This document shows, piece after piece, positions 6,260 through 58,071 of a stretch of 64,000 nt of DNA (its first letter is position 1; each line of letters opens with the position of its first letter). The notes below the pieces were generated by a model. It saw only the letters and a list, made by a program, of their open reading frames with translations, was not told the DNA's origin and did not search any database. Made by a program: the position numbers and the translations under genes. This stretch comes from a virus: positions 50,444 through 114,443 of the IMG/VR virus record IMGVR_UViG_3300042556_001053. One strand, given 5' to 3'.

Positions 6260-6832
6260 ATGAGAAGAGATAAAAAGATTTGGATTGGAATCCTTGCTGC
6301 ACTTGGGCTTATTGCACCACTAAGTAATGCAGCTAATGCTTTAAGTACTGAAAATAACTTGAGTAAACCAGCCATTGCTGAACCTTCAACCGCCAAGGCG
6401 GTTTTTTTGGTTTCTAAGCCTAAAAGTCTGGTAGCAGTAAAAAAGAACCTAAATGTTCTACATAAGTATCAGGATGCTGTTAGTCTTACAGACCGTCAGT
6501 TAAAGGAGCTTTTGCATGCCGTTGGTTTTCGTGGCCAAGGCCTAGTAAAGGCTTGGGCGGTAGCTAAGAAAGAGTCTAATGGCCGTCCACTAGCTTTTAA
6601 TGGCAATGTTAAGACTGGTGACAACTCTTACGGTATATTTCAAATCAATATGCTTGGAATGCTAAAAGAAGGTCGTCAAGATAAGTTTGGCCTAAACTTT
6701 AATAGTGAGCTCTTAAACCCTGTTATCAATGCACAGGTTGCATATCACATGAGTAATGGTGGAAAGAACTGGTCTGCTTGGAAAGGCATGACTCCAAGAA
6801 CCAAGTCCTGGATGGCTAAGTTCCCTTACTAA
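6260..6832 (+). CDS. Secreted lysozyme-like (lytic transglycosylase fold) protein
   Basis: 190 residues, start with a strong AGGAGG Shine-Dalgarno. Residues 1-27 form a signal peptide (RRDKK, then a hydrophobic stretch ending SNAANA). Residues about 75-185 read as a lysozyme/SLT-like domain: AVAKKESNGRP places a catalytic-type Glu after 'a.A..ES.g', followed by SYGIFQIN (the G-I-F-Q-I-N signature of lysozyme-like muralidases). It would act on peptidoglycan outside the membrane. The only plus-strand gene between two leftward blocks, with its own promoter and 5' hairpin. Its 3' end overlaps the convergent oxygenase gene by 4 nt. Confidence 0.8.
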   Translation: MRRDKKIWIGILAALGLIAPLSNAANALSTENNLSKPAIAEPSTAKAVFLVSKPKSLVAVKKNLNVLHKYQDAVSLTDRQLKELLHAVGFRGQGLVKAWAVAKKESNGRPLAFNGNVKTGDNSYGIFQINMLGMLKEGRQDKFGLNFNSELLNPVINAQVAYHMSNGGKNWSAWKGMTPRTKSWMAKFPY

Positions 6833-7407
6833 AAAGGCAAATTTTTATTAAGAACTGTTGGGTGCTCATCATTACCTCTCATAAATATTGTTGAGAAGTA
6901 TCTAGGCGAATCATCTAAAACTGGAAGAGATCCATGCATAACTTCTCCTCCATGAAGTAGGGCTGAGCCAGCTTTTGGTTTAATAGTTATTCCTAATTCT
7001 GGGTAGTCAAGCTCTCCACCAAGATAGTTATCATTATAATATATTACAAGGCCATAGCCTAAATAATATCCTTCAGGGGTTGTATCATTATCACGATGTT
7101 GCTTTATTTGATCGCCTTTTTTAAACCTAGAAATCTTTAATTCTTGTTCACAAAAAAAATATGATGGGAATATGTAGTCAACCTTATCAAAAACCAAGCT
7201 TCTACACAAATCTTTATGATCATAAAGGAACAAACTTTTATCGTGCCATAAACTATATTCATCTGAAATTTCATTAAGATCAGTCCAGCCATCTTGTTTT
7301 TTATCAGAAAGTATATTTAAAATTAAAGACAGTTCTTCTTGATTTAAAAAGTTTTCAATTTCATAAACATCCTCTGCAAGTTTGTTAATTTTAAAATTGT
7401 ATTTCAT
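6829..7407 (-). CDS. 2OG-Fe(II) oxygenase (cluster member 1)
   Basis: 192 residues, prolyl-4-hydroxylase-like double-stranded beta-helix. Iron ligands visible as H104-x-D106 (QHRDND) and H158 (MHGSLP); R169 is the likely 2-oxoglutarate carboxylate ligand. Core strands read YYNDNYLGGEL and IKPKAGSALL. Last gene of the leftward oxygenase run and adjacent, with no gap, to the dehydrogenase upstream. Substrate unknown. Confidence 0.85.
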   Translation of the reverse strand: MKYNFKINKLAEDVYEIENFLNQEELSLILNILSDKKQDGWTDLNEISDEYSLWHDKSLFLYDHKDLCRSLVFDKVDYIFPSYFFCEQELKISRFKKGDQIKQHRDNDTTPEGYYLGYGLVIYYNDNYLGGELDYPELGITIKPKAGSALLHGGEVMHGSLPVLDDSPRYFSTIFMRGNDEHPTVLNKNLPF

Positions 7408-8076
7408 TTAACCAAACTTACTACTACCTATATGGTTCATTTCAATATGATTAATATTAAAATGACTTGGAAGATCTGATACCCACCTAATAGACTCTGC
7501 AAGATCTTCAGCAGTCAAGGCTATTTCACGTCTTTCTGTTTGTGTATCAATAGTTCCTGGGCATATTTCAGTAACCTTAATGCCGTAAGCAGGAAACTCT
7601 AAACGCATAGTATCAACTAGTGCCATCATTCCTCTTTTAGCGTTTATATAGTTACCACCACTACGGTATGGAACCTTTCCACCCAAGGAACTTATAAATA
7701 TAATAGTTGGAGACTTAGACCTTTGCATGCATGGAACAAAAAGCTGTGAAAGGTACATAGGTCCAGAGACATTTATTTCGTAGGCAATTCTAAAATTATC
7801 CATTGTTTCATTTATAAGCATTGTTGGACCTGATCCACCACCAGCATTATTAACTAGAAGGTCAAGTGTGATATCTTTGTATTTTTCAAAAAAAGACTTA
7901 ATCTCTTCAGGATTAGTTATGTCCATCTTGTATGTTTCAACATTGTCAGATACAAGCTCATTGACCTTAGAAAGGTTTCTAGAGACAGCTATAACCTTGT
8001 AGCCACTCTCAGACAGAAGTTTTACTGTAGCATAGCCAACGCCCTTGCTAGCCCCTGTAACTATGGCTGTTTTCAT
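7408..8076 (-). CDS. Short-chain dehydrogenase/reductase (SDR)
   Basis: 222 residues, classical SDR. Nucleotide-binding TGASKGVG at residues 7-14, NNAG at 76-79, and the catalytic tetrad N102-S130-Y143-K147 (YINAK). The 'SRN' after the second strand suggests NADP(H), an inference. Overlaps the upstream oxygenase by 4 nt (ATGA). Embedded in the oxygenase operon, it could oxidise a hydroxyl made by a neighbour, or make an activated sugar; the sequence does not say which. Confidence 0.88.
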   Translation of the reverse strand: MKTAIVTGASKGVGYATVKLLSESGYKVIAVSRNLSKVNELVSDNVETYKMDITNPEEIKSFFEKYKDITLDLLVNNAGGGSGPTMLINETMDNFRIAYEINVSGPMYLSQLFVPCMQRSKSPTIIFISSLGGKVPYRSGGNYINAKRGMMALVDTMRLEFPAYGIKVTEICPGTIDTQTERREIALTAEDLAESIRWVSDLPSHFNINHIEMNHIGSSKFG

Positions 8077-8777
8077 CTGTTGTCCGTAGGCTGTGTACCG
8101 CCAGATAAGTCGTTATACCAGTGCATAGGTATCATATATTTAAAACCACTTTTTACAAGGTGAGCTGTATGATGATAAGGAGGAGAAGATGGGAATATAA
8201 TTACGCTTCCAGCTTCTGGTTTAATTCCTATTGTTATTCTGTCAGAATCCTTGGACAAAGAGTAGTCTTCTGATGGCTTTCCATTAATAATAGGGGCATC
8301 TGGGGACTCTATGGTAAAAGATAATTCGCCACCTTCGTAGTCATCATTTAAATAAAACACTAAAGAGTATCTTAACCTAGTGTCCCCTTCTTGTTGATCA
8401 AAGTGTGCACCCATAAAGGTTCCAGCGCTATATTTTTTAATATCAAAGGCTGGTAGAATCATTGGCTCTTCCATGTCTCCTTTTGATACTGCATAGTCTT
8501 TGCAGACATTATAGAATAAATCAGTTATTGTGTTATATATGTAACTAACAGGGCTAGCATCTTTATCTGCTATTTTTTCAGAATCAGATGGCTGAACAGT
8601 TTTTTGAGATCCATACAAATACATCTCTCCACTGCAGGCTGTCCACTCATTCCATTTAGTCAAGGATGTGCCATAGTCTTTGCTCTCAGTGGCTTCAATC
8701 ATTTCTATAAACTTTTTTGGATCTGCTATTGCATTTTTATAGTAATATATGTTTTCTTCAAGTATTTCTCTTTGCAT
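8073..8777 (-). CDS. 2OG-Fe(II) oxygenase (cluster member 2)
   Basis: 234 residues. H125-x-D127 (AHFDQ), distal H206 (TAHLVKSG), K213 as the 2OG ligand instead of Arg. Core YLNDDYEGGELSF and IKPEAGSVIIFPS. Closest by eye to member 3 (8777-9520): both share YNVCKDYA or HNVCKDYA, GAHFDQ and GFKYM-P-HW, so they are a tandem duplication. TAATG overlap with member 3. Confidence 0.88.
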   Translation of the reverse strand: MQREILEENIYYYKNAIADPKKFIEMIEATESKDYGTSLTKWNEWTACSGEMYLYGSQKTVQPSDSEKIADKDASPVSYIYNTITDLFYNVCKDYAVSKGDMEEPMILPAFDIKKYSAGTFMGAHFDQQEGDTRLRYSLVFYLNDDYEGGELSFTIESPDAPIINGKPSEDYSLSKDSDRITIGIKPEAGSVIIFPSSPPYHHTAHLVKSGFKYMIPMHWYNDLSGGTQPTDNR

Positions 8778-9520
8778 TACATTATCCCCTTATTTGATTG
8801 TTGAGGATACATGCTCATGTTGTTGTGTATCCAATGACCTGGAACCATATACTTAAATCCAGACTTTACTGTATGTGCTATATGAAAATATGGTGCTTTT
8901 GCAGGAAAAATTATTACGCTATTTGCTTTTGGCTTTATTCCAAAGTCTATTGATTTGCTTGCCTTGGCTATTTCATAATCTAGGTCTACACCTGGTGCTC
9001 CATGAACCCAGCCTTCGGAGCTATTCCATCCACCATCATAGTCTTTAAGCTGAAATGAAATTTCTCCGCCTTCACAGTCATCATTTAAATACATGACTAA
9101 AGAATATCTTAGTGTTTCATCTCCATCTAGTTGATCAAAGTGTGCTCCCATAGATCTTCCAGTATTATACTTTTTAATATTAAATGTTGGAAACAGATTT
9201 GGCTCATCGTAGTCTCCAAGAGATAAAGCATAATCTTTACATACATTATGAAACGTTTTCATAACAGCATCATAAATATACTTGGTTTTTTCTCCAACCT
9301 CGTCTTTTAATTTATTAATTGAATCTAAATTAAAGGTTTTGGTTTCACCATAGATAAAAGACTTATCGTTAGAAGATGTCCAAGGCTCCCAAACATTTAC
9401 GTTATGTTCACTTGATGCGTCCAATGCGTCCAGCTCTTTTAAAATTTTCTGAAAAGTATCAAAATTTTCTATTGCATCAGTATAATAATAAACCTTTGGA
9501 TCTAAAATTTCTTTATTCAT
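8777..9520 (-). CDS. 2OG-Fe(II) oxygenase (cluster member 3)
   Basis: 247 residues. H127-x-D129, distal H216 (IAHTVKSG), K223. Longer insertion (about residues 158-190) between the core strands than in member 2. Preceded by a GGAGAC Shine-Dalgarno. Tandem paralogue of member 2. Confidence 0.88.
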   Translation of the reverse strand: MNKEILDPKVYYYTDAIENFDTFQKILKELDALDASSEHNVNVWEPWTSSNDKSFIYGETKTFNLDSINKLKDEVGEKTKYIYDAVMKTFHNVCKDYALSLGDYDEPNLFPTFNIKKYNTGRSMGAHFDQLDGDETLRYSLVMYLNDDCEGGEISFQLKDYDGGWNSSEGWVHGAPGVDLDYEIAKASKSIDFGIKPKANSVIIFPAKAPYFHIAHTVKSGFKYMVPGHWIHNNMSMYPQQSNKGIM

Positions 9521-9529
9521 TCTGTCTCC

Positions 9530-10189
9530 TTAATATTTATTATTTTCATAGAAGTTTTTTTCTTTTATAAAACCAACTAGAACATATCTAATTGGTCCCT
9601 CACCAACTGGAATTACTCCGTGATGAAAATCGCTAGTTCCTGGGAAAATAAGAAGTGATCCCTTTTTAGGTTTTATTTTTAAATCTAAGTTTTTAAAAAA
9701 CAATTCTCCATCAGCATACTCATCATTAAGATATAAAATGGTTGCATAACGAATTGAGGGATCTGTGTCTTGATCTGTATGAGCCTTTAGTTCAACTCCA
9801 GGCTGCATCCTTTGCAATGTAGCTAGTCCACTTAGCTCTAAATTACTTCCTTCATTAACTACGGCTTTATTTAGTCTTTGATATACAGTGTGATAGATTG
9901 GATATGCCCTTATTACCAGATTCTTGTCTTCCCAGTTTCTGGTGATCTCAAACTTTCCTTCAGCAACAAGATTGTCAACGTCATCTCTACCAAATTTTTC
10001 CATACAGAATCTTTTAAGGTTGGAAGTATATTCTATAAACCAATCCTCGTCTGGTGTATTGTTGATAATCTCTAAATAGTCGTCTATTTCTTCTTGAGAA
10101 ATAAAATCTTCTAATAAAAGTAGATCTTTTGATATTTCTTCAAATTTTATTCCTAGATCAGTTAGCTCTTTTGTAAGATATGCAGACAT
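9530..10189 (-). CDS. 2OG-Fe(II) oxygenase (cluster member 4)
   Basis: 219 residues. H137-x-D139 (AHTDQD), distal H190 (FHHGVIP), R201. Core YLNDEYADGELFF and IKPKKGSLLIFPG. The N-terminal ~120 residues are alpha-helical and unlike those of members 2 and 3, so the family members have diverged outside the catalytic core. 1-nt gap to the gene upstream. Confidence 0.88.
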   Translation of the reverse strand: MSAYLTKELTDLGIKFEEISKDLLLLEDFISQEEIDDYLEIINNTPDEDWFIEYTSNLKRFCMEKFGRDDVDNLVAEGKFEITRNWEDKNLVIRAYPIYHTVYQRLNKAVVNEGSNLELSGLATLQRMQPGVELKAHTDQDTDPSIRYATILYLNDEYADGELFFKNLDLKIKPKKGSLLIFPGTSDFHHGVIPVGEGPIRYVLVGFIKEKNFYENNKY

Positions 10190-10190
10190 A

Positions 10191-10940
10191 CTAGATTACC
10201 TCCTCTGGCTTATATTTATTTCCATCTTTATCTAGCTTCCACCCTTGCTTAAGTAGCTCTTGCCACTCTGCTCTTTCAATCTCTTGCTTTGCTCTTGTTT
10301 CTTTCATTTCTTCGGCCCATGCATCTCTTACCTCTTGTGGGTAGGCATCTTCTTCACGGTCATCCCAGAAAGATCCTATGGTATATCTTACACCTTTAGT
10401 AATTAACGATACTTCGTGCATATTATTAAATCCACCGTCAAATACGGCAAGCATTCCAACCTTTGGCTGAATTTCTATGTTTTGATCTGGAAATCTTAAA
10501 AGACCACCTTCAAAATCATCGTTTAAGTACAGGAATCCTGCATATCTACTTCTTGTAAATGCTCCAGAATTGCCCTTCTCATCTGTATTATCAGAGTGTA
10601 CTCTTGCATAAGCACCTGGCTCCCACTTTTGAGTATGATATCCAATTTTAGAAATTATTTTTGGGTCTAAGTCATGTACTGATGCAATTGCTTCTGGCAT
10701 CTTACTTTCAATATCTGAAAAAATAGTTGGAGATAGCCCAGCGTCAATTACCTCTTGATCATTGTCTTGTGGTAGCACTGAAGAATATGACTCATAAAAT
10801 GATATAGGCATCCAAGTTAGTCCGCCGTTATTTGCTTGTGCATCAAGTGCATTAATCATCTTTTTGCACTCATCTTCACTAACAAAGTTTTCAAAAATAA
10901 CAATATCCTTTGTAAGTCTTATCTTATTGTTTAGGTTCAT
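10191..10940 (-). CDS. 2OG-Fe(II) oxygenase (cluster member 5)
   Basis: 249 residues. H115-x-D117 (VHSDN), distal H175 (MHEVSLI), R185. Core YLNDDFEGGLLRFP and IQPKVGMLAVF. Carries a C-terminal charged helical tail (residues about 205-249, EMKETRAKQEIERAEWQEL) absent from its neighbours. Overlaps member 6 by 4 nt. Confidence 0.87.
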   Translation of the reverse strand: MNLNNKIRLTKDIVIFENFVSEDECKKMINALDAQANNGGLTWMPISFYESYSSVLPQDNDQEVIDAGLSPTIFSDIESKMPEAIASVHDLDPKIISKIGYHTQKWEPGAYARVHSDNTDEKGNSGAFTRSRYAGFLYLNDDFEGGLLRFPDQNIEIQPKVGMLAVFDGGFNNMHEVSLITKGVRYTIGSFWDDREEDAYPQEVRDAWAEEMKETRAKQEIERAEWQELLKQGWKLDKDGNKYKPEEVI

Positions 10941-11818
10941 TTTATTCTCACAGCTCCTTCTATTTCGTTTCTTTGTGGATGATCTTTTCTAAACTGTTCA
11001 TGTATTTCTGGTTGCATGCTTGCCCATACATGCTTACCAAACTCTTTTTCTTTTTCATACCATTCATCAGACCCTTTTTCATACTTTTGCCAATACATTC
11101 TTGACAAAAACTTATTTTTATTGTAAGAAGGCATTACTCCATGTAAGTATGGATCACCATTTTCTGTTAAATAATCGGGATGCCCTGATGGAAAAACAAG
11201 TAGGTCTCCTGCTTGTGGCTTATATTTAACAAGCTTATCTCCCATTGCAAAGTCAACCTCTCCGCCTTCATAGTCGTCATTAAAATAAATAGTGCATGTT
11301 ATTACAAACTTGTATCCTGGAGCATCTGCCATCTCTCTCTGATAGTCTGAATGATATCTCATCCCTACCTTTTCTTCATCAGTGCTTACATGATACTTTC
11401 CAACTGTTCCACCAGCCCACTTCCAGGTTGGAACAGTCTGACCACTTTCATCTACAGACAAGTCATCTAAATCTACTTCTACCCCATACTTTTTAATATA
11501 GTGCTCTGTAGCCAAATAAAAGTTTTCCAACATCTCTATTGCAAAGAGTCGCTGGTCTTCCTGAGACTGTGTTGTTGTTTTGATATCTTTTAAACCGCCG
11601 TACTTATCGTACATAATCAGATTAGGTATTATTGGGCTTAAGTATTCTCCAAAAATAGACCATTGTGTCCAAGGGCTAAAAAGTCTATCTTCTGAGTTAT
11701 CCAAAGAATCATTTAAAACTTTGTAAGATTTTGAAATATCTTTAAACATATTTTTATAAACTACAATATTTGGGTATATTTCTTCAAACACAATACCATT
11801 TTCTTGGGTGTTGTTCAT
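10937..11818 (-). CDS. 2OG-Fe(II) oxygenase (cluster member 6)
   Basis: 293 residues. H156-x-D158 (RYHSDY), distal H226 (YLHGVMP), R240. Core YFNDDYEGGEVDF and YKPQAGDLLVFPSGHP. Pairs with member 7, sharing FEEIYPNIVVY at the N-terminus and the SGHP-Y-TE-G-YLH segment, so members 6 and 7 are a recent tandem duplication. Overlaps member 7 by 4 nt. Confidence 0.88.
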   Translation of the reverse strand: MNNTQENGIVFEEIYPNIVVYKNMFKDISKSYKVLNDSLDNSEDRLFSPWTQWSIFGEYLSPIIPNLIMYDKYGGLKDIKTTTQSQEDQRLFAIEMLENFYLATEHYIKKYGVEVDLDDLSVDESGQTVPTWKWAGGTVGKYHVSTDEEKVGMRYHSDYQREMADAPGYKFVITCTIYFNDDYEGGEVDFAMGDKLVKYKPQAGDLLVFPSGHPDYLTENGDPYLHGVMPSYNKNKFLSRMYWQKYEKGSDEWYEKEKEFGKHVWASMQPEIHEQFRKDHPQRNEIEGAVRIK

Positions 11819-12702
11819 CTTAATCTAACCCCATTATCTATTGTAATTCTTTGTAGGTTTTCTTTTTCATATTGACCCTGAATCTTATTCATCTCTGACT
11901 GCCAAGAGTCACCAAAAATTAGACTTTTTTCTTTCCACTCATCAGATGAGTCTTCATATACTGTCCAAAACATCCTTATAAAATATTTTTCATTTTCTTT
12001 ACAAATTTCTGCAGCATGTAGATATACCTCACCATCTTCTGTGGAATATTCTGGATGTCCTGAAGGAAAAACAACAAAATCTCCAGCTTTTGGTTTATAG
12101 TTTATTAGCTTATTGCCAACTGCAAAGTCAATTCCGCCTCCTGAATAATTATCATTTAGGTATATGGTTGTAGTCAAAACAAACTTATATCCTGGGCCCT
12201 TTATAGCTTCTCTAACATAGTCGCTGTGATATCTCATTGCTAATCTTTCAGAGTCTGGCCCAGCAGCGGTAGAACCAACATAATATTTACACAAAGATGG
12301 TCCAGTCCAGTTCCACTTTTGATATTTTTTTCCATCTGATTGAACAGTATCTTTTTCTTCTTTGTGTATTGGGAAGTTGTGTTTTTCAATATAGTGGTTA
12401 TTAGCCAAATGAAATGCTTTAATTAATTCAATCATAAAATATCTTTGATCTTCTTGAACCTTGCTAGTAGGTTCTATGTCAAAGTTAATTTTAAGATCTG
12501 AGACATTTTTATCAAAAGATATTCCAAAGTTTTCTATTTTTTCACCTATAGAGTACCAGTCATTCCACTTGTCCCATATAGCATCTTCATAATTATTTAT
12601 TGAATCTTTTGCAATCTGATACATTCTTTCTGGGTCTTCAAATATGTTATTGTAAACAACAATATTTGGATAAATTTCTTCAAATGTAAGTTCTGTAGTC
12701 AT
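11815..12702 (-). CDS. 2OG-Fe(II) oxygenase (cluster member 7)
   Basis: 295 residues from ATG 12702 (MTTELTFEEI); an upstream in-frame ATG at 12771 lies inside the previous gene and was rejected. H159-x-D161 (RYHSDY), distal H229 (YLHAAEI), R243. Core YLNDNYSGGGIDF (Gly for the usual Glu in the GGEL motif). Tandem paralogue of member 6. Only 1 nt separates it from the upstream stop. Confidence 0.87.
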   Translation of the reverse strand: MTTELTFEEIYPNIVVYNNIFEDPERMYQIAKDSINNYEDAIWDKWNDWYSIGEKIENFGISFDKNVSDLKINFDIEPTSKVQEDQRYFMIELIKAFHLANNHYIEKHNFPIHKEEKDTVQSDGKKYQKWNWTGPSLCKYYVGSTAAGPDSERLAMRYHSDYVREAIKGPGYKFVLTTTIYLNDNYSGGGIDFAVGNKLINYKPKAGDFVVFPSGHPEYSTEDGEVYLHAAEICKENEKYFIRMFWTVYEDSSDEWKEKSLIFGDSWQSEMNKIQGQYEKENLQRITIDNGVRLR

Positions 12703-12703
12703 A

Positions 12704-13378
12704 TTACGGCTTTCTGTCTCCAGTATGTTCCGTAATTTCCCAAAAAAATGGACATGTAAATCTAAGCCCACTTTTTATTTCTGTGACCCCATGTATATAG
12801 TTCATATCTCCAGGGAAAAAATATGCTGCTCCTTTTTTAGGTTTAAATTGAACTCCTTGATTTGGAAAGTATAGCTCTCCGCCTTCGTAGTCTTCATTTA
12901 AATAAAACAAACTGGAAAGATCATAGTTTGGAAAATCATTTGGCAGTCCTGCGTCTGGCCCGTCGTGCAGTTCTTTATCAGCGTGTGGTTTTTGGAATTG
13001 TCCTGGAAGCCACTTGACAATTGTTGTTCCTGTAGGAATTACTTTTACTTTATAAAATTCTTCTACTATTGGTTGCAATCTTTGAAATAGGCCAGCAATG
13101 ACTGGAGATATCTTTGGATCGTTTTTGTCTAAACTTGGCTGTGTTGCAACTCTATCTTTCCAATAATCTGAATCGTATACTACTGTACCGTTTTCATTTA
13201 CATGGCTTTCTGTTACATCCCAAATTGTTAAAGATTTTGCAGCCTTTTCTAAAAACTCTATTTCTTCTTGTGTCATAAAGTTTTCTAGCTCAACAATCAT
13301 TTCTTTGCCACTACCAAACCAGCCAGAAGGTGTTATTGATGGCTTTCTAACCACAACAGAAGCTTTTATATTATCCAT
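12704..13378 (-). CDS. 2OG-Fe(II) oxygenase (cluster member 8)
   Basis: 224 residues. H132-x-D134 (PHADKE), distal H196 (YIHGVTE), R206. Core YLNEDYEGGELYFP and FKPKKGAAYFFPG. TATAAT at 13385-13390 lies exactly 7 nt upstream of the ATG, inside the intergenic junction, so an internal leaderless promoter may restart transcription of the cluster here. Confidence 0.88.
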   Translation of the reverse strand: MDNIKASVVVRKPSITPSGWFGSGKEMIVELENFMTQEEIEFLEKAAKSLTIWDVTESHVNENGTVVYDSDYWKDRVATQPSLDKNDPKISPVIAGLFQRLQPIVEEFYKVKVIPTGTTIVKWLPGQFQKPHADKELHDGPDAGLPNDFPNYDLSSLFYLNEDYEGGELYFPNQGVQFKPKKGAAYFFPGDMNYIHGVTEIKSGLRFTCPFFWEITEHTGDRKP

Positions 13379-13380
13379 AA

Positions 13381-14109
13381 TTAGATTATACCATTTCCTT
13401 TGCTTGCTGTATTGTCCGTAACAGAAAGACGGATAACCTTTGTTTCGTGAGAGCCTTTACTTTCACCCTTTTCATTAATTGCATCTCTATACCAATCGGT
13501 CCATTCACCAGATTGATTAATTTTTTGTGCAGCTTCTCCATATGACTGATGAGCTTTTTCTCTACTACGATCTGGATCTGAATAATCAAATATTTGAATT
13601 GATGTATTGTCCATTGCTGTCAAAGAGATTGGTACTATAGTTGCAAGAGGTGTACCTGCTTTTATAGTAATTTCTTTATTCGCAGATCTTGCTTTAATTG
13701 CTAATGGGAAACCAGTATCTAGCCAAGATGTACTGATTAAAGAAGACATGGTTTCAAAGTCTTCACTAAAATAGTTTACTGGGTTAATAGTGAACATGCT
13801 TACGTTTTGTTCAGATCTAAAGGTGAGCCCTGTATGTATACTTACTGTAGATTGTCCCCTGCCAGTATAAGTAAACCCTTCTCCCTCTATAACTTTAACA
13901 TTTTCTGAACTTGTATCGTTTATTCCATTCCATATAAACTTGATATCCTCTTTAGCTGAAAGATTCCACCCAACCATGTTTGCTTGGGTTACTGGAAAAC
14001 ATCTGTATGCATGCTTTTCTGGAGTAAGATCCATCCAGTCTCTTTTTATTGACATTGGAGAAATTATAATTTTTGAATCTGGAAATCTTTCAACAGAGAT
14101 ATTTAACAT
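13381..14109 (-). CDS. DUF6065-like protein
   Basis: 242 residues with no 2OG motif. The stretch AYRCFPVTQANMVGWNLSA...IKFIWNG and the later AGTPLATIVPIS match what I recall of DUF6065, a beta-rich family of unknown function. A distant relative sits two genes upstream (14796-15572). Sandwiched in the oxygenase operon with a 1-nt overlap to member 9. Function unknown; a substrate-binding or partner role is inference. Confidence 0.6.
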   Translation of the reverse strand: MLNISVERFPDSKIIISPMSIKRDWMDLTPEKHAYRCFPVTQANMVGWNLSAKEDIKFIWNGINDTSSENVKVIEGEGFTYTGRGQSTVSIHTGLTFRSEQNVSMFTINPVNYFSEDFETMSSLISTSWLDTGFPLAIKARSANKEITIKAGTPLATIVPISLTAMDNTSIQIFDYSDPDRSREKAHQSYGEAAQKINQSGEWTDWYRDAINEKGESKGSHETKVIRLSVTDNTASKGNGII

Positions 14110-14786
14110 TACATTTTATCCTGAGTAAACATATCTGGAGTATGGAACTTTTTGTTATAATCCAACATAGTAACAATAGAGTATTTTGTTCCAGATTCTA
14201 CTGGCATAGCTTGATGAGGATACATGTAGTTTGATGGGAAGATATACAGATCTCCAGCCTTTGGCTTAATCTTTAAATCTTGCAATCTAAAGTACAACTC
14301 GCCACCTTCATAGTCATCATTGATGTATGCAACAAGAGAGACTGTACAATTATAAGAATACCCATGGTCATGGTGCTCCATAAAGTGTTGTCCTGGACCA
14401 TACTTTATAAAGTTAAAGGCTTCCCAATATTTAAGATCCATAATGTTGTAATCTTTTCTGTAATCTTCAACTGCCTGGAACTGAGCATCATATACATCTT
14501 GCCAAAGAGATTGTAGCTTTAAAGATGTTTCGCTTTTATCTAGCTCTATATCTGTTTTCTTAAACTTAAAATCAACACAGTCTCTGTAGTCTGGAATAAG
14601 TTGCTGGTACCCAACGTATGCTGGCATCCAGTGGTATCTGTTACCTTCTGGAGATAATTCTCCGTATCCAGCTACTGACCCTAAATTTTCTTCAAGTCTT
14701 TCTATTACATTGAAGTCTTTTTTTATTACATCTCTGTAACATACAATTCCATTACCAAGATTTATTTTTTCTGTCCATGTTTGCAT
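14109..14786 (-). CDS. 2OG-Fe(II) oxygenase (cluster member 9)
   Basis: 225 residues. H138-x-D140 (EHHDHG), distal H191 (YPHQAMP), K201. Core YINDDYEGGELYF and IKPKAGDLYIFPSNY. Closely resembles member 10, sharing RDCVDFK, EAFNF-KY, INDDYEGGE, FPSNY-Y and SGTKY; the pair flank the second DUF6065-like gene. Confidence 0.88.
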   Translation of the reverse strand: MQTWTEKINLGNGIVCYRDVIKKDFNVIERLEENLGSVAGYGELSPEGNRYHWMPAYVGYQQLIPDYRDCVDFKFKKTDIELDKSETSLKLQSLWQDVYDAQFQAVEDYRKDYNIMDLKYWEAFNFIKYGPGQHFMEHHDHGYSYNCTVSLVAYINDDYEGGELYFRLQDLKIKPKAGDLYIFPSNYMYPHQAMPVESGTKYSIVTMLDYNKKFHTPDMFTQDKM

Positions 14787-14795
14787 AGTTTCCCC

Positions 14796-15572
14796 CTATT
14801 TATATTCTCTTCTTGTCCAAACCTTATTTTTATAAACGCCACCATCTGGTTGTCTATAAAAATTTGCATTACTCATCATTTTAGCATAAATTTCTGTTGA
14901 GCCTATAAAGTTTATTTCATGACTCCAGTCTTCTCTTTTAAAAGGCAGTATCTGTACATATGGTGTTCCTGCTGGAAGCGTTCCTTCCCAACCTTCTGTA
15001 ATAAAAAATGGAAAAGTACCTAGAAGATGAACACTATCATTGTCAACAACTCCAGTGGTATTTATAAATGGCAAATCAAAACGATTCATTGGGGTCATGA
15101 ATAATGCACTGTATCCTTCTGGCAATTCTAGGCCCCAGTCTGGGTACCAGGCAAAATGCTCTCTATAATATCCTTTTGGTTGCTCAAATTGTGGCATTGC
15201 CATTCTTTTGCTGCAAAAATCTTGATGTCGTGTATCTTCTATTTTTACATCTATAGAACCGCTTGCTGTTTTAAAAAAAGTAATATCACAAGGAGTTTTT
15301 AATACATATCCTGTTGTAAATGCATCCATGATTGCTGGACATGCTTTCCATGTAGGAATCTTTCCATAGTCATCTTTTGTTCCTTCTTTAGGAAATGGAC
15401 AAATCTGCGGTGTGGCTTTGTAGTATTCACCAATAGGATCTTTGGCAAACCTATCTGCATCTTTGTACCATTGTGGAATTACTGCTTGTGTTGGTGATGG
15501 AACAGAGGGACTATCCTTTGTAACCCATGGCCTATAAGCTGTAAACTTTGCAATATTTTCTTTTAATGTCAT
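14796..15572 (-). CDS. DUF6065-like protein, diverged
   Basis: 258 residues. The N-terminus (FTAYRPWVTKD...PQWYKDADRF) and the core 'P.D.tFf...' and LPAGTPYVQILPFKRE resemble the protein at 13381-14109 (AGTPLATIVPIS) and structural-module proteins of unknown function in marine phages. 1-nt overlap with the upstream oxygenase. No catalytic motif recognised. Confidence 0.55.
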   Translation of the reverse strand: MTLKENIAKFTAYRPWVTKDSPSVPSPTQAVIPQWYKDADRFAKDPIGEYYKATPQICPFPKEGTKDDYGKIPTWKACPAIMDAFTTGYVLKTPCDITFFKTASGSIDVKIEDTRHQDFCSKRMAMPQFEQPKGYYREHFAWYPDWGLELPEGYSALFMTPMNRFDLPFINTTGVVDNDSVHLLGTFPFFITEGWEGTLPAGTPYVQILPFKREDWSHEINFIGSTEIYAKMMSNANFYRQPDGGVYKNKVWTRREYK

Positions 15573-16285
15573 TACTTATGACCTAGCTCATTTATATCTG
15601 TCATGACTACGACACAATACTTTGTACCGCTCTTCATTGGCAGAGATGCATGCTCATATATGTAGTTTGATGGAAACACTGCAATGTCTCCTACCTTTGG
15701 AGTAAGAGTGTAGCCATCTAATCTTGGAAATTGAATCTCTCCGCCTTCATAATCATCGTTAATATAGATAACTGCAGATACTGTAGCATTATATGCTGGT
15801 CCGTGATCAGCATGAATATTAAAGTGTTTTCCTTCGCCTTCATATTTGACAAAGTTGAATGCTTCATAATAAACAACATTAATTCCCCAGTATCTTGCAT
15901 AATCATCTATACAAAGCTTTAGCTTTTCGTATATCTCCTGATGTAAATCAATGAGCTCACTATTGAAAGGATCTCTTGGTCCCAAATTTTCCTGCTTGTA
16001 TTTAAAGTCAACGCAATCTCTTGCTCGTTTAATTGGTGTAGCAGAGTTTGTAACTGTTGCTTCAGACCATCTAAACTTTTTTGTTCCGTCTAAGTTAGAT
16101 TCAAGTGTGTTTATATATCTTTTTGAATCTTCTAAAGAAAACACATTTCTATATATGTTCAAACCAAGACCTGGGTTCTCTATTACAATATTGTGCTCAG
16201 GTATAGCCCTATCAACCTTGTTTGTTATTGTCTCTGATCTGTCCTTGGTAAACCATGGGTTTTCATTTTCATCATAAATTTCCAT
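15572..16285 (-). CDS. 2OG-Fe(II) oxygenase (cluster member 10, first in operon)
   Basis: 237 residues. H158-x-D160 (IHADHG), distal H212 (YEHASLP), K222. Core YINDDYEGGEIQFP and LTPKVGDIAVFPSNY. First gene of the 16.3-6.8 kb leftward run, preceded by a GGGGATAT-type ribosome site and a very AT-rich leader. Paralogue of member 9. Confidence 0.88.
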   Translation of the reverse strand: MEIYDENENPWFTKDRSETITNKVDRAIPEHNIVIENPGLGLNIYRNVFSLEDSKRYINTLESNLDGTKKFRWSEATVTNSATPIKRARDCVDFKYKQENLGPRDPFNSELIDLHQEIYEKLKLCIDDYARYWGINVVYYEAFNFVKYEGEGKHFNIHADHGPAYNATVSAVIYINDDYEGGEIQFPRLDGYTLTPKVGDIAVFPSNYIYEHASLPMKSGTKYCVVVMTDINELGHK

Positions 16286-16440
16286 ATATATCCCCTTTTT
16301 ATTTTATTATACACTATCTTTATTTTTTTGTAAAACAATTTAAATATTATTGCAAACCTTTTGCAACATATAAGATCTAGCACTCATAAAAACACAAAAG
16401 GCCAAACAATGTTGGCCAATTGTATTACTGCTTTTTTATT

Positions 16441-17517
16441 TTATACTACACCTGGTAGTGTGAAGTATGGGAAGAACGGTCCAACTCCAAACCCTGGGAA
16501 GAACGGTGGGAAGAATGGGAAGAACGGGAAGAATGGGAAGAACGGTGGGAAGAACGGGAAGAATGGGAAGAACGGGAAGAACGGTGGGAAGAATGGGAAG
16601 AACGGGAAGAATGGGAAGAACGGTGGGAAGAATGGGAAGAACGGGAAGAATGGGAAGAACGGTGGGAAGAACGGGAAGAATGGGAAGAACGGGAAGAAAG
16701 GTGGGAAGAATGGAGGGAAGAATGGGAAGAAAGGAGGGAAGAATGGAGGGAAGAACGGTGGGAAGAATGGGAAGAACGGTGGGAAAAATGGCGGGAAGAA
16801 TGGAGGAAAGAATGGGAAGAACGGAGGAAAGAACGGTGGGAAAAATGGAGGGAAGAAAGGAAAGAATGGAAAGAATGGTGGAAAGAATGGTCCTAATGTA
16901 ACAACAACAGAGTTAGAGTTTGAAGATACTGGAGATGATCCATTTGCATTTGTTGCAATAACTGTATATGTATATGTTCCTGCTGTTGTTTCTGTAATAG
17001 TAAGTGGGGTTCCTGTGCCAGTTGCTGTTTTTCCAGAAGTAGAAGTGACTGTATAGTTTGGAGTAGTTAAAGCTGAGTTTCCAATTTGTGCAGATGTAAG
17101 GTTTGTAAAAGGAATAGTTACAATTCCAGTTGTTCCATTAACTGATGCTGTTCCAATTGTTACCTGAGCTGGCTTAGATGTTGGGACTACAGCATTACTT
17201 GCTGAAGAAGCTGCAGAAACTCCGATTGCATTTGTTGCGGTAACGGTAAAAGTATAATTTGCTGGAGTTCCACTTGTTGACAAACCTGTTATAACTATTG
17301 GAGAAGATGATCCAGTTCCTGTATGTCCACCAGATGAGGTTACTGTATATCCTGTAATAGGCATCTTGCCATTATAAGAAGGGGCTGAAAAAGATACAGA
17401 AACCTGACCGCTATTAAATGTGCGTCCTGATCCTTGGTCTGTAGCTGTGCCAATTACTGGTGCGTTTGGAACTGACTTCTTTGATGAATCTGTTGTACCA
17501 GTATTTTTTGGGCTCAT
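16441..17517 (-). CDS. Fibronectin-III-like protein with Phe/Pro repeat tail
   Basis: 358 residues. Residues about 17-112 and 115-208 are two Fn3-like domains (ITGYTVTSSGG...YTFTVTATNAIG; YTVTSTSGK...YTYTVIATNANG). Residues about 210-350 are almost only Phe and Pro in FFPPFFPFFP units, encoded by a 9-12 bp tandem repeat. The minus frame is the coding one because the Fn3 domains and start lie on it. Role inferred: virion surface decoration or fibre. The F/P tail has no function I know; it may be a rigid, hydrophobic, aggregation-prone segment. Confidence 0.8.
   Translation of the reverse strand: MSPKNTGTTDSSKKSVPNAPVIGTATDQGSGRTFNSGQVSVSFSAPSYNGKMPITGYTVTSSGGHTGTGSSSPIVITGLSTSGTPANYTFTVTATNAIGVSAASSASNAVVPTSKPAQVTIGTASVNGTTGIVTIPFTNLTSAQIGNSALTTPNYTVTSTSGKTATGTGTPLTITETTAGTYTYTVIATNANGSSPVSSNSNSVVVTLGPFFPPFFPFFPFFPPFFPPFFPPFFPFFPPFFPPFFPPFFPFFPPFFPPFFPPFFPFFPPFFPPFFPFFPFFPFFPPFFPFFPFFPFFPPFFPFFPFFPFFPPFFPFFPFFPFFPPFFPFFPFFPFFPPFFPGFGVGPFFPYFTLPGVV
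16468..16895. repeat. GGGAAGAAC/GGGAAGAAT tandem repeats
   Basis: Around 45 imperfect copies of 9-12 bp units (GGGAAGAACGG, GGGAAGAATGG and variants) encode the F/P tail on the minus strand. Strong purine/pyrimidine strand asymmetry over 430 bp; likely to vary in copy number by slippage. Confidence 0.85.
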
Positions 17518-17557: not shown

Positions 17558-18277
17558 TTATCTAACAGATATATAAATAGATTTAGCAACCATTGAGGCA
17601 TCATTATCTGTCAATATTTGTGGTAGTCCGCCATAGTTTCTAACCATGTCATTTTCTATAAAAAAGGTGTGCTCTAATGACATGTCATATGAAAACTGAT
17701 ACTTTAGGTTTGCAGCAAAGGTAGTAGGCCAAAAGTCAGACTCTGGTATGTAAGTTCTAAACCAAACTTCAGTGTTGTTGGTAAGGGTAGTCAAAATAAT
17801 ATCATAACGGACTGTTACAATTGAGCCAACCTTTAGTGCTTTAAGGTTTATTTTTTGTGATTGTGAGTTATATAATGAAACGTTATTTTCTGGTAAATAA
17901 AGCTCGTTATTTTTACCCCTACAGTCAAAGCTAAAGCTAACCCAGCCGTCATTTCCTTTTGTAGCACCAAGAGTAATATTTTTTTGATCTTTGTTTGTAT
18001 AAAGAGCCCAACCAGTTCTTTGACCTGATGGAGACAAACTGCTTTCTCCTGCTATTCCATCCCTACCGTTTTTTCCATCTTTACCAGGTTTTCCAGGTTC
18101 TCCCTGTGGTCCTTGTTTGCCTTCTGGTCCAGAATCGCCTTTATCACCCTTTGGGCCCTGTTCTCCTTGTGGTCCAGGAACAGCTATGAAAGAAACTGAT
18201 TGCTCAAGTTGATAAGAGTTGTTTACATTGTCTGAATATTTTTTAGACTTCCCTGGAAAATCCATGCTAGTTGACAT
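17558..18277 (-). CDS. Collagen-like fibre protein
   Basis: 239 residues. Residues 35-79 are fifteen uninterrupted G-X-Y triplets (GPQGEQGPKGDKGDSG), giving a short collagen-like triple-helix stalk. The C-terminal ~150 residues form a predicted beta-rich head (WVSFSFDCRG...). Typical of phage side-tail fibres. Belongs to the second fibre block under the BppU-like gene. Confidence 0.8.
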   Translation of the reverse strand: MSTSMDFPGKSKKYSDNVNNSYQLEQSVSFIAVPGPQGEQGPKGDKGDSGPEGKQGPQGEPGKPGKDGKNGRDGIAGESSLSPSGQRTGWALYTNKDQKNITLGATKGNDGWVSFSFDCRGKNNELYLPENNVSLYNSQSQKINLKALKVGSIVTVRYDIILTTLTNNTEVWFRTYIPESDFWPTTFAANLKYQFSYDMSLEHTFFIENDMVRNYGGLPQILTDNDASMVAKSIYISVR

Positions 18278-36892: not shown

Positions 36893-37672
36893 ATGTATAA
36901 TGCCAAACTAAACAATGAGGCTTTTTTTGAAACAGATTTAGATAAACTTTCGGAAATCTGGGAACCAAGAAAAGAATATATAGACAAAGATTTATGGGTT
37001 ATTAGAAACTTTTTGATACCGCCTGAATTAGAATGGCTAAACAATGAAGCAAATGATCCAGATGGCTGGTACACAACTATGAGATCTCCTTATGGTGGAA
37101 ATATAAAAAATAAATTTTTAGGGTATATACCAGATTATGATGAAAATGGAAACATGCTTGTTCCTACAGAGCATTCAAAATGGAGGGAAAGAGATCATAT
37201 TAATTATATAGAAAAAAGAATAGAGTCTGTTGTACCTAAATATTTTGGTGGAGCTGGTGCTCTTCAGTCTTTCTTTGAAGTTTCTGATGAACAAATTTTT
37301 CAAGAAACTGGAAGAACAGATATTGATTATGCAATGGGATGGCATTATGAAAGAGATGATAGTGACTCAGAAAACCAACAAACAACTATTGTAGAAAACT
37401 CAAAAACACAAGGTAAAAGAATTAATAGTCAAGGGAAAATATCAGGATCTTTTAATGTTTACATTAATGATAATTTTGATGGTGGAATCTTAGAGTTTAG
37501 AAATAAAGATTATGTTGTTAAGCCAGAGGTTGGAATGCTGGTGAATATTCCTTTGTATAAAGAGTTTGAGCACAGAGTAACAAAGGTTACAAATGGAAAT
37601 AGACACACGATCTATGGAAGATCTTGGGATATTCAGGATGGAAAATATTTCTCTACTAACGAAGACTGCTAG
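36893..37672 (+). CDS. 2OG-Fe(II) oxygenase with HxE motif
   Basis: 259 residues. Core VYINDNFDGGILEF and VVKPEVGMLVNIP with distal H227 and R237. Proximal ligands read H151-Y-E153-R-D (MGWHYERDD), so the usual Asp appears to be replaced by Glu, with a free DD two residues later. It follows the nucleotidyltransferase by 4 nt, so may act on the same glycan. Confidence 0.75.
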   Translation: MYNAKLNNEAFFETDLDKLSEIWEPRKEYIDKDLWVIRNFLIPPELEWLNNEANDPDGWYTTMRSPYGGNIKNKFLGYIPDYDENGNMLVPTEHSKWRERDHINYIEKRIESVVPKYFGGAGALQSFFEVSDEQIFQETGRTDIDYAMGWHYERDDSDSENQQTTIVENSKTQGKRINSQGKISGSFNVYINDNFDGGILEFRNKDYVVKPEVGMLVNIPLYKEFEHRVTKVTNGNRHTIYGRSWDIQDGKYFSTNEDC

Positions 37673-57459: not shown

Positions 57460-58071
57460 TTAACAATCATGAATCCATGTAACAATGGCATATTTTTCAC
57501 CAGATGTAACTGGGTGTGCTATATGTCTATAAGCATAATTAGACGGAAACACCAATAATGACCCAGCTTTTGGCTTAATCTTTATTCCAAAGTTAACGAA
57601 CTCAATCTCTCCCCCCTCGTAGTCTTCATTTAAATAAACTATGGGAGACACCACCCTTCTAGATGATGTATCTCCATCGTAATGTGCTTTGTAGTACTGT
57701 GAATCTGTATATTTTAATAAGCTATTGCTCTCTGTGTAAAAAAATGTTTCATTTATATTAAACATTGAACGATAACTATACAAGTATACATTAAGAATTT
57801 TATTAAACTTTTCATTTATATTTTTTAGATCTTTATCTGTCTCTGAGGCTTTTTTCAAAGAAAGTGAATAGTTTGTTCTTACTTTATGTATTCCAAGGTT
57901 AGCATTTTCTTCTTCACTTTTAACTTTTCCTTTTGAAAAATATACTTGAGATTCTTGGTCTGAAGATATATTACTTATAGTAATAAGGTCTTCAGCCAAG
58001 CCATCCCAAACATCTTCATATATAGCAATTACACCAGCAAGCGTATATGTTGGCTTAATTGAGTTTAACAA
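57460..58071 (-). CDS. 2OG-Fe(II) oxygenase
   Basis: 203 residues. H130-x-D132 (KAHYDGD), distal H186 (IAHPVTSG), K193. Core YLNEDYEGGEIEF and IKPKAGSLLVFPSNY are like the main cluster, about 45 kb away. Longest insertion is N-terminal (residues 30-110). Confidence 0.87.
   Translation of the reverse strand: MLNSIKPTYTLAGVIAIYEDVWDGLAEDLITISNISSDQESQVYFSKGKVKSEEENANLGIHKVRTNYSLSLKKASETDKDLKNINEKFNKILNVYLYSYRSMFNINETFFYTESNSLLKYTDSQYYKAHYDGDTSSRRVVSPIVYLNEDYEGGEIEFVNFGIKIKPKAGSLLVFPSNYAYRHIAHPVTSGEKYAIVTWIHDC

Follow-up and report, generated by a model that had tools for sequence, protein, structure and literature searches.

A run of ten intact genes for P4H-type 2OG-Fe(II) oxygenases, all reading in one direction and with a core that is fixed in many related phages, occupies positions 6829–16285 of the window, the whole stretch of 64,000 nucleotides analysed here (from IMG/VR virus record IMGVR_UViG_3300042556_001053). 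We infer with moderate confidence that the run is a conserved phage operon hydroxylating a tail protein that carries a Phe/Pro repeat. The gene with this aromatic-Pro repeat lies directly upstream of the run, and its product is the likely target. The run had been delimited as such in an initial annotation of the sequence, but the extent given there omitted the repeat gene (16441–17517), the most telling one of the locus.

Content and layout of the gene run

In the ORF listing of the window the run consists of thirteen consecutive ORFs, all on the minus strand, which comprise ten oxygenases (o1 to o10), an SDR and two DUF6065-type genes (d1 and d2). Fibre or tail genes were found on both flanks, as initially annotated. 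The features of the locus are given below; counts out of 60 refer to long loci.

17558..18277, minus: collagen-like fibre protein, alternative or additional candidate substrate (PF01391, 34.8 bits)
16441..17517, minus: repeat tail protein, proposed substrate; FN3-type N-terminal part and C-terminal (P/PP-F-F)n
16468..16890, minus: Phe/Pro repeat tract (the C-terminal 149 residues contain 80 Phe and 59 Pro)
16400..16417, minus: terminator-like hairpin in the repeat gene–o1 interval (pattern match only)
16306..16334, minus: sigma-70-like promoter match ahead of o1 (11/12 positions)
15572..16285, minus: o1, 2OG-Fe(II) oxygenase, core member (PF13640, 44.3 bits; H, D, H, K)
14796..15572, minus: d1, DUF6065-like, core member (PHROG 7084, E 3.8e-34; 59/60 loci)
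14109..14786, minus: o2, 2OG-Fe(II) oxygenase, core (PF13640, 57.7 bits; 59/60 loci; AF2 pLDDT 94.6)
13381..14109, minus: d2, DUF6065, core member (PF19541, 104.8 bits; 60/60 loci)
12704..13378, minus: o3, 2OG-Fe(II) oxygenase, core (PF13640, 38.1 bits; 60/60 loci)
11815..12702, minus: o4, 2OG-Fe(II) oxygenase, o5 paralogue (PF13640, 29.5 bits; H, D, H, K; 44% to o5)
10937..11818, minus: o5, 2OG-Fe(II) oxygenase (PF13640, 36.6 bits; o4/o5 type in 43/60 loci)
10191..10940, minus: o6, 2OG-Fe(II) oxygenase, core (PF13640, 37.1 bits; 60/60 loci)
9530..10189, minus: o7, 2OG-Fe(II) oxygenase, among the faster evolving (PF13640, 49.4 bits; 43/60 loci)
8777..9520, minus: o8, 2OG-Fe(II) oxygenase, o9 paralogue (PF13640, 37.3 bits; o8/o9 type in 56/60 loci)
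8073..8777, minus: o9, 2OG-Fe(II) oxygenase (PF13640, 44.3 bits; 45% to o8)
7408..8076, minus: SDR oxidoreductase, accessory (PF00106, 140.5 bits; 35/60 loci, 2/16 divergent loci)
6829..7407, minus: o10, 2OG-Fe(II) oxygenase, accessory (PF13640, 29.8 bits; 17/60 loci)

A Pfam profile search bore out the assignment of all ten oxygenases, which matched PF13640 (2OG-FeII_Oxy_3) with 29.5–57.7 bits against a curated cut-off of 27 bits, the weakest scores being those of o4 (29.5), o10 (29.8) and o5 (36.6). The HxD...H ligands and the basic residue that had been read from the sequence in each of the ten were confirmed by column alignment, and the 2OG anchor is Lys in o1, o2, o4, o5, o8 and o9 and Arg in o3, o6, o7 and o10. 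The genes are tightly packed, as originally described, with spacings of +9 to −4 nt save for one 68-nt overlap, which vanishes if o4 begins at ATG 12702; this start was adopted here, the ORF as listed extending to GTG 12771. Tandem duplication had also been proposed, and the paralogous pairs are real, with pairwise identities of 41% (o1/o2), 44% (o4/o5) and 45% (o8/o9), but o1 and o2 are not strictly adjacent because d1 lies between them. The SDR is present as annotated, and the run contains no glycosyltransferase gene. A conserved promoter ahead of o1 was considered and rejected, since a pattern similar to that in the window is found upstream of just 19 of 191 o1 genes.

Of the two genes described as DUF6065-like, d2 is assigned by its Pfam match; d1 has no Pfam match and is connected to d2 through PHROG 7084, which is common to both. 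The AF2 model of d1 (pLDDT 93.3) has a weak dUTPase-like (beta-clip) similarity, with E 3.1e-3 and TM ~0.3 by query length for the best match in the PDB, and d1 was not assigned as a dUTPase. Our literature search returned nothing on DUF6065. Among 198 genomes from the phylum to which a Chitinophagaceae MAG belongs, the domain occurs in two; one of these is the phage contig itself, and in the other the neighbouring genes are uninformative on function. Genes of the d1 type in haloarchaeal viruses also have tail-fibre genes nearby, but these are encoded on the other strand, and no annotated 2OG genes adjoin the d1-type genes; the arrangement is suggestive only.

Conservation of the cassette and its linkage to the repeat

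The same cassette recurs with conserved gene order in many IMG/VR viral contigs, which establishes its presence in related phages and shows that the run in the window is not a chance arrangement. Oxygenases number 4–10 per locus (median 7), or 4–11 over the group as a whole, and the core o1-d1-o2-d2-o3-o6 is kept in 59–60 of the 60 long loci. The cassette evolves under strong purifying selection, with dN/dS of 0.01–0.33 for its genes in comparison with five close relatives, o3 being mostly the most constrained member (0.01–0.06), and the HxD/E...H...K/R pattern is kept in 906 of the 907 fully aligned oxygenase ORFs of relatives. A search for near-DNA matches among 50,697 phage records returned nothing. 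In some relatives a 193-aa gene lies beside o10; it has no Pfam match and is not claimed as a methyltransferase.

Structural and replication proteins are nearest to those of actinophages, the portal protein matching Streptomyces phages at 47% and the RNR matching Mycobacterium phage Gaia and Actinomycetia phage DSL-LC01 at 60–61%. The carriers of the cassette form a widespread group of lake viruses, with actinobacteria as the probable hosts. In DSL-LC01, a close relative by RNR, PF13640 genes are absent from the whole record and the repeat was not found in the parts searched.

The product of 16441–17517 ends in a (PFFPPFFPFFP)n repeat, preceded by a part in which the fn3 match is weak in the window copy (22.0 bits, cut-off 25) and above the cut-off in several relatives. 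When 3,116 units (the dipeptides between prolines) from 173 distinct tracts were compared, position 2, the residue before Pro, was Phe in 3,108 (99.7%), and position 1 was Phe in 89%, Tyr in 7% and His in 2%. The repeat is thus constrained as protein. Loci that first seemed to be without FFP, or nearly so, carry variants such as YFP (L385) and HFP (L393).

Repeat gene and oxygenase run are linked in both directions. With o1 as the anchor, an xFP-repeat gene was found upstream on the same strand in 85 of the 87 non-identical o1 loci whose upstream sequence was long enough; the remaining two (L366 and L120) do contain the repeat DNA, but its frame is broken or truncated. In the reverse direction, of the 55 contigs retrieved by repeat DNA alone, 52 carry an oxygenase no more than 3 kb downstream. 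At generic-fibre loci, by comparison, any oxygenase was found in 20 of 119 and the repeat in none of 119 (Fisher p ~6e-24 for repeat contigs versus generic-fibre loci, the loci not being independent). The fibre genes near the cassette vary between loci while the repeat stays, and the repeat also occurs in proteins of other build with an oxygenase alongside, as in L142.

Enzyme class and candidate substrates

The AF2 model of o2 (pLDDT 94.6), the one oxygenase for which the double-stranded beta-helix fold was shown, has as its 50 best PDB matches prolyl hydroxylases, among them P. putida P4H, PHD2, collagen and algal P4H and PBCV-1 vCPH (5c5t), together with two PKHD-type chains, at sequence identities of only ~14–23% in the best fold matches. 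Structure prediction, which had been proposed at the outset, placed prolyl-hydroxylase folds on top for o2. Profile matches are likewise led by prolyl 4-hydroxylases (3itq, E 8e-15), prolyl 3-hydroxylase 1 and lysyl hydroxylases. The closest solved relatives of the oxygenases are peptidyl hydroxylases. Hydroxylation of peptide proline is predicted from the linked Pro-rich repeat.

The initial annotation envisaged multi-step hydroxylation of a fibre or of a surface glycan or peptide. A fibre peptide is the best supported of these, while a glycan finds no support in the closest enzyme families, which act on peptides. A broader reading has the enzymes hydroxylating or otherwise altering a host or virion glycan, lipid or small molecule, in one pathway with the SDR and with sugar-type genes located in other parts of the genome. 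It would fit the diversity of PF13640 proteins and the SDR inside the run, but we regard it as quite improbable given the peptidyl hydroxylase relatives, the SDR not being core and the lack of a glycosyltransferase in the run. Somewhat less improbable, though still unlikely, is mere co-inheritance of repeat gene and oxygenases in one tail and host-interaction module, with some other protein of the virion or host as the target of the enzymes. Tail genes do surround the cassette, and the oxygenase tandems of cyanophage S-SCSM1 adjoin tail-fibre genes lacking an FFP repeat; the persistence of the repeat among varying fibre genes, its occurrence beside an oxygenase in differently built proteins and the rarity of oxygenases at generic fibre loci nevertheless argue against co-inheritance.

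Collagen hydroxylases appear among the PDB matches, and a collagen-like gene lies immediately upstream of the repeat gene; both bring to mind collagen prolyl and lysyl hydroxylases, with the fibre 17558–18277 as the substrate. In the stretch examined, however, a collagen-like ORF lies near a minority of cassettes and the xFP repeat near almost all, so that collagen was rejected as the general explanation. DSL-LC01, moreover, encodes several collagens but lacks PF13640 genes, and collagen has a very low probability as the main substrate. Modification of DNA or RNA, in the manner of TET/JBP or AlkB, is more improbable still: the weak Tet_JBP (PF12851) matches of o3, o7 and o10 are all below the family cut-off (best 21.4 bits against 34.9), the run contains no nucleic-acid enzyme, and it is located in the tail region; DNA modification was accordingly rejected. 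The antigenic-like diversification also suggested initially, in which the tandem genes would serve as a reservoir for diversification or recombination, might explain the paralogous pairs and the variable copy number (4–10), but the core is fixed, the active sites are intact and dN/dS between relatives is well below 1. Purifying selection largely refutes this explanation, to which we attach almost no probability.

A proposed pathway and its relation to known systems

Under the operon model preferred here, the oxygenases would act late in infection, drawing on O2 and host 2-oxoglutarate. Pro residues of the repeat would be hydroxylated, and possibly also the side chains of Phe, Tyr or His, with separate enzymes for separate positions or atoms. 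The DUF6065 proteins may assist in binding or presenting the repeat, and in loci that have the SDR this enzyme may take the oxidation of some hydroxyls further. The tract, very hydrophobic as encoded, would in this way be turned into a polar segment of the virion, soluble, rigid or adhesive, with a part in attachment. The simplicity of the repeat in the face of up to ten enzymes counts against this model, as does locus L126, in which the repeat is present and a PF13640 match is absent across the 38-kb contig. PBCV-1 also counts against it, having an active prolyl 4-hydroxylase and yet no hydroxyproline found in its virions (PMC7019647).

This PBCV-1 enzyme (vCPH/vP4H, 5c5t) is a single small enzyme of a eukaryotic virus with no known tie to one adjacent substrate gene, whereas the cassette has 4–11 oxygenases in one run beside one repeat protein in tailed phages. 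S-SCSM1 has 24 2OG ORFs, read by its authors as auxiliary metabolic genes (PMC9602691); four are consecutive and adjoin tail-fibre genes, but the 2OG genes lie at several places in the genome, their products have low identity to the oxygenases of the cassette, and the xFP repeat is absent from the fibre genes examined. The initial suggestion that ten 2OG genes in one operon were undescribed has to be narrowed, since a phage with many such genes has been published, but our literature search found no conserved ten-gene 2OG operon coupled to a repeat protein. Collagen prolyl 4- and 3-hydroxylases, lysyl hydroxylases and HIF prolyl hydroxylases have the fold, the facial triad and the basic 2OG anchor in common with the cassette enzymes and act on peptides, in the case of collagen on repeats, whereas the proposed substrate here is an aromatic-Pro repeat and the setting a phage operon. 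RiPP clusters with several hydroxylases combine one genetically encoded peptide with a set of tailoring enzymes beside it; the proposed substrate here differs in being a domain of a tail-type protein, and no leader peptide or export gene was recognised. We tentatively raise the possibility of a RiPP-like finishing line, in which 4–11 cooperating oxygenases and two DUF6065 helpers might densely oxidise an aromatic-proline polymer of the virion into a non-standard attachment material.

Most likely the enzymes modify the repeat chemically, and a protein-finishing line of this kind is not known from any phage. Proposals published for the role of phage 2OG oxygenases include DNA repair (PMC2984593) and a part in the nitrogen metabolism of the host (PMC9602691), and the locus offers a concrete candidate substrate for a large set of these abundant proteins. 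If the model is true, heavy post-translational hydroxylation would join the ways in which phages build attachment structures, the aromatic-Pro repeat would be a new virion element, DUF6065 would gain a context, and the cassettes would provide peptide hydroxylases of differing likely specificities usable as tools. If the RiPP-like reading also holds, the phage would be making a new chemical surface out of an ordinary polypeptide.

Layout and enzyme class of the oxygenase run

The source virus record comprises 114,443 bases in full, of which the window covers bases 50444-114443, and PF13640 (2OG-FeII_Oxy_3) matches were found at 13 places across it, 10 of the 13 lying inside a single run. The features considered here, in window coordinates, are as follows.

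16285 to 6829, minus strand: the run, in transcription order o1-d1-o2-d2-o3-o4-o5-o6-o7-o8-o9-SDR-o10, where o1 to o10 are oxygenase genes, d1 and d2 DUF6065-type genes and SDR an oxidoreductase gene
16441-17517, minus strand: the repeat gene, next gene upstream of o1
57460-58071, minus strand: PF13640 place outside the run
36893-37672, plus strand: PF13640 place outside the run, under the cut-off

The initial annotation had read ten 2OG-Fe(II) oxygenases in the run from sequence alone, and the Pfam profile search bears this out, since all ten exceed the PF13640 cut-off and carry the H, D and H ligands plus K/R in the correct alignment columns. With the o4 start placed at the ATG at 12702, adjacent genes either share a few bases or have gaps no longer than 9 nt between them. 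The d2 product is a DUF6065 protein, to which d1 is distantly related via PHROG 7084.

When a profile of the ten oxygenases was compared with solved structures, the top match was the bacterial prolyl 4-hydroxylase (P4H) 3itq (E 8e-15), followed by other P4Hs, prolyl 3-hydroxylase 1, PKHD-type enzymes, lysyl hydroxylases and HIF prolyl hydroxylases. The best 50 PDB folds for the predicted structure of o2 (pLDDT 94.6) are prolyl hydroxylases plus two PKHD-type chains, and include P. putida P4H with EF-Tu, the algal P4H with a (Ser-Pro)5 peptide, and PBCV-1 vCPH. Of the characterised enzymes listed here, all but the PKHD type act on peptides. The predicted structure of d1 (pLDDT 93.3) is similar to further phage proteins that are themselves uncharacterised; its likeness to dUTPase and dCTP deaminase folds is weak. 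In haloarchaeal tailed viruses (loci L092 and L093) a d1-like gene adjoins tail fibre or adhesin genes.

Conservation of the cassette

Scanning IMG/VR with o2 gave hundreds of relatives, and in the 80 loci retained for comparison the same genes recur in the same order, to an extent limited mainly by how far the contigs run; the cluster is a conserved cassette. A second scan, with an alignment of the ten paralogues as query, recovered o1 relatives with identities as low as 47%, which are still trailed by o2, d2, d1 and o3 and, in most cases, by an o6-type gene. A census of 60 loci in which the sequence continues for 7.5 kb or more downstream from o1 found d2, o3 and o6 in all 60, d1 and o2 in 59, an o8 or o9 type in 56, an o4 or o5 type in 43, o7 also in 43, SDR in 35 and o10 in 17. 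These loci hold 4–10 oxygenases each, and single loci up to 11 when counted over the whole locus.

The suggestion of antigenic-like diversification in the initial annotation does not agree with the substitution pattern: dN/dS of the run genes is 0.01–0.33 against five close relatives, and of the 907 oxygenase ORFs that align in full, 906 retain the catalytic residues. Against the more distant relative L374, a comparison made rough by saturation, dN/dS is low in most genes and reaches 0.76 for o10. Judged from these sequences, the cassette genes are held intact by selection, and are neither decaying copies nor diversifying antigens.

The Phe/Pro repeat gene

The repeat gene lies outside the interval first annotated (6829-16285). 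Its first part is FN3-type. In its C-terminal 149 residues Phe accounts for 80 and Pro for 59, arranged as PFFPPFFPFFP, one form of a variable residue-Phe-Pro (xFP) unit. Linkage was examined in both directions. Viral contigs were scanned solely for repeat-encoding DNA. In 55 loci a repeat ORF was followed by 3 kb or more of sequence; among the matches listed, 52 of these loci have a same-strand oxygenase ORF within 3 kb downstream. The exceptions are L096, with six PF13640 genes elsewhere in the contig, L116, an 8.4-kb fragment, and L126, in whose 38 kb no PF13640 gene was found. Conversely, non-identical o1 genes whose contigs extend 2.5 kb or more upstream number 87, and 85 of these are preceded by a same-strand repeat ORF among the matches listed, the exceptions being L366, where the repeat is in broken frames, and L120, a locus originally found via repeat DNA. 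In 119 control loci found by the common fibre motif TQTLTNKT, an oxygenase occurs in 20 (maximum 3) and the xFP repeat in none, again among the matches listed. The loci are mutually related, so that p values computed from them assume more independence than exists; the size of the difference between repeat and control loci is unaffected by this. The xFP repeat is a near-constant companion of the cassette, and the repeat gene appears to be the gene that explains it.

Across 173 distinct tracts there are 3,116 dipeptides between prolines; their second residue, next to the following Pro, is Phe in 3,108, and their first is Phe in 89%, Tyr in 7% and His in 2%. Divergent cassettes swap part of FFP, for YFP in L385 and L394 and for HFP in L393, L395, L397 and L399. 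The repeat is, by this pattern, selected as protein. A Thr variant of xFP, PTFPTFP, is repeated in a 1,021-aa protein (L387:574-3639) whose contig also holds FFP and the cassette. Hint/intein-like C-terminal domains, below the Pfam cut-off, occur in some repeat proteins, at L118:2791-4128, L109:6071-7393, L385:8661-9929 and L142:3566-6481, and might cleave or couple the C-terminal end of the repeat.

A search of 84,980 species genomes of bacteria and archaea found the repeat pattern a single time, on a contig of 5.3 kb (L210, JAFMJX010000128.1) with o1, o2, o3, d1 and d2 homologues. This contig, in a Chitinophagaceae MAG, most likely represents a piece of phage DNA that bears the cassette, and its placement there is probably a binning error. 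The host is likely a freshwater actinobacterium, as the nearest relatives of the portal protein and ribonucleotide reductase are actinobacteriophages, including Actinomycetia phage DSL-LC01 from Dishui Lake. No PF13640 gene was found in DSL-LC01, nor the repeat in the parts searched; it has several collagen-like genes. At L402:22222-28212 of this phage, genes for an annotated tryptophan halogenase and a glycosyltransferase come after collagen-like genes, and may be a further set that modifies fibres in a freshwater actinophage.

Proposed hydroxylation of the repeat

The claim that a ten-gene 2OG operon was undescribed holds in part. Cyanophage S-SCSM1 has 24 2OG genes, regarded by its authors as metabolic (PMC9602691), four of them consecutive and beside tail-fibre genes. 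Phage 2OG proteins similar to human EGLN3 are reported in the Phold paper (PMC12774648), and PBCV-1 encodes a prolyl 4-hydroxylase active on peptides, although hydroxyproline was not found in virions (PMC7019647). Viral peptide hydroxylation is of a known kind, and the apparently new part is that oxygenases of a phage are linked to a tail protein with a repeat, for which a literature search covering few subscription journals returned no paper; nor did it return one mentioning DUF6065. Two genes after the four consecutive 2OG genes, S-SCSM1 encodes a short tail fibre (L094, 213879-215144) that carries an Arg/Pro-rich repeat (RQPR, FRVR) as an insertion, perhaps the same principle with a different repeat.

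Established at the level of sequence are intact P4H-type genes, a single direction, a fixed core and the near-constant company of the xFP repeat, and we consider it fairly probable that this repeat is the substrate of the oxygenases. Another Phe/Pro-repeat protein, 1,561 aa long and encoded outside the window among tail genes of the same genome (L089:18680-19999 plus L090:3-3365; G000:18680-23365), is a possible second substrate. The repeat would be hydroxylated in the host cell during infection, ahead of tail assembly or while it proceeds, with separate oxygenases for separate residues or atoms; the DUF6065 proteins may present the substrate, a role that for d1 is a guess, and SDR may carry the oxidation further. 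More than half Phe and otherwise mostly Pro, the tract would be very insoluble if unmodified, which would give a reason for its modification.
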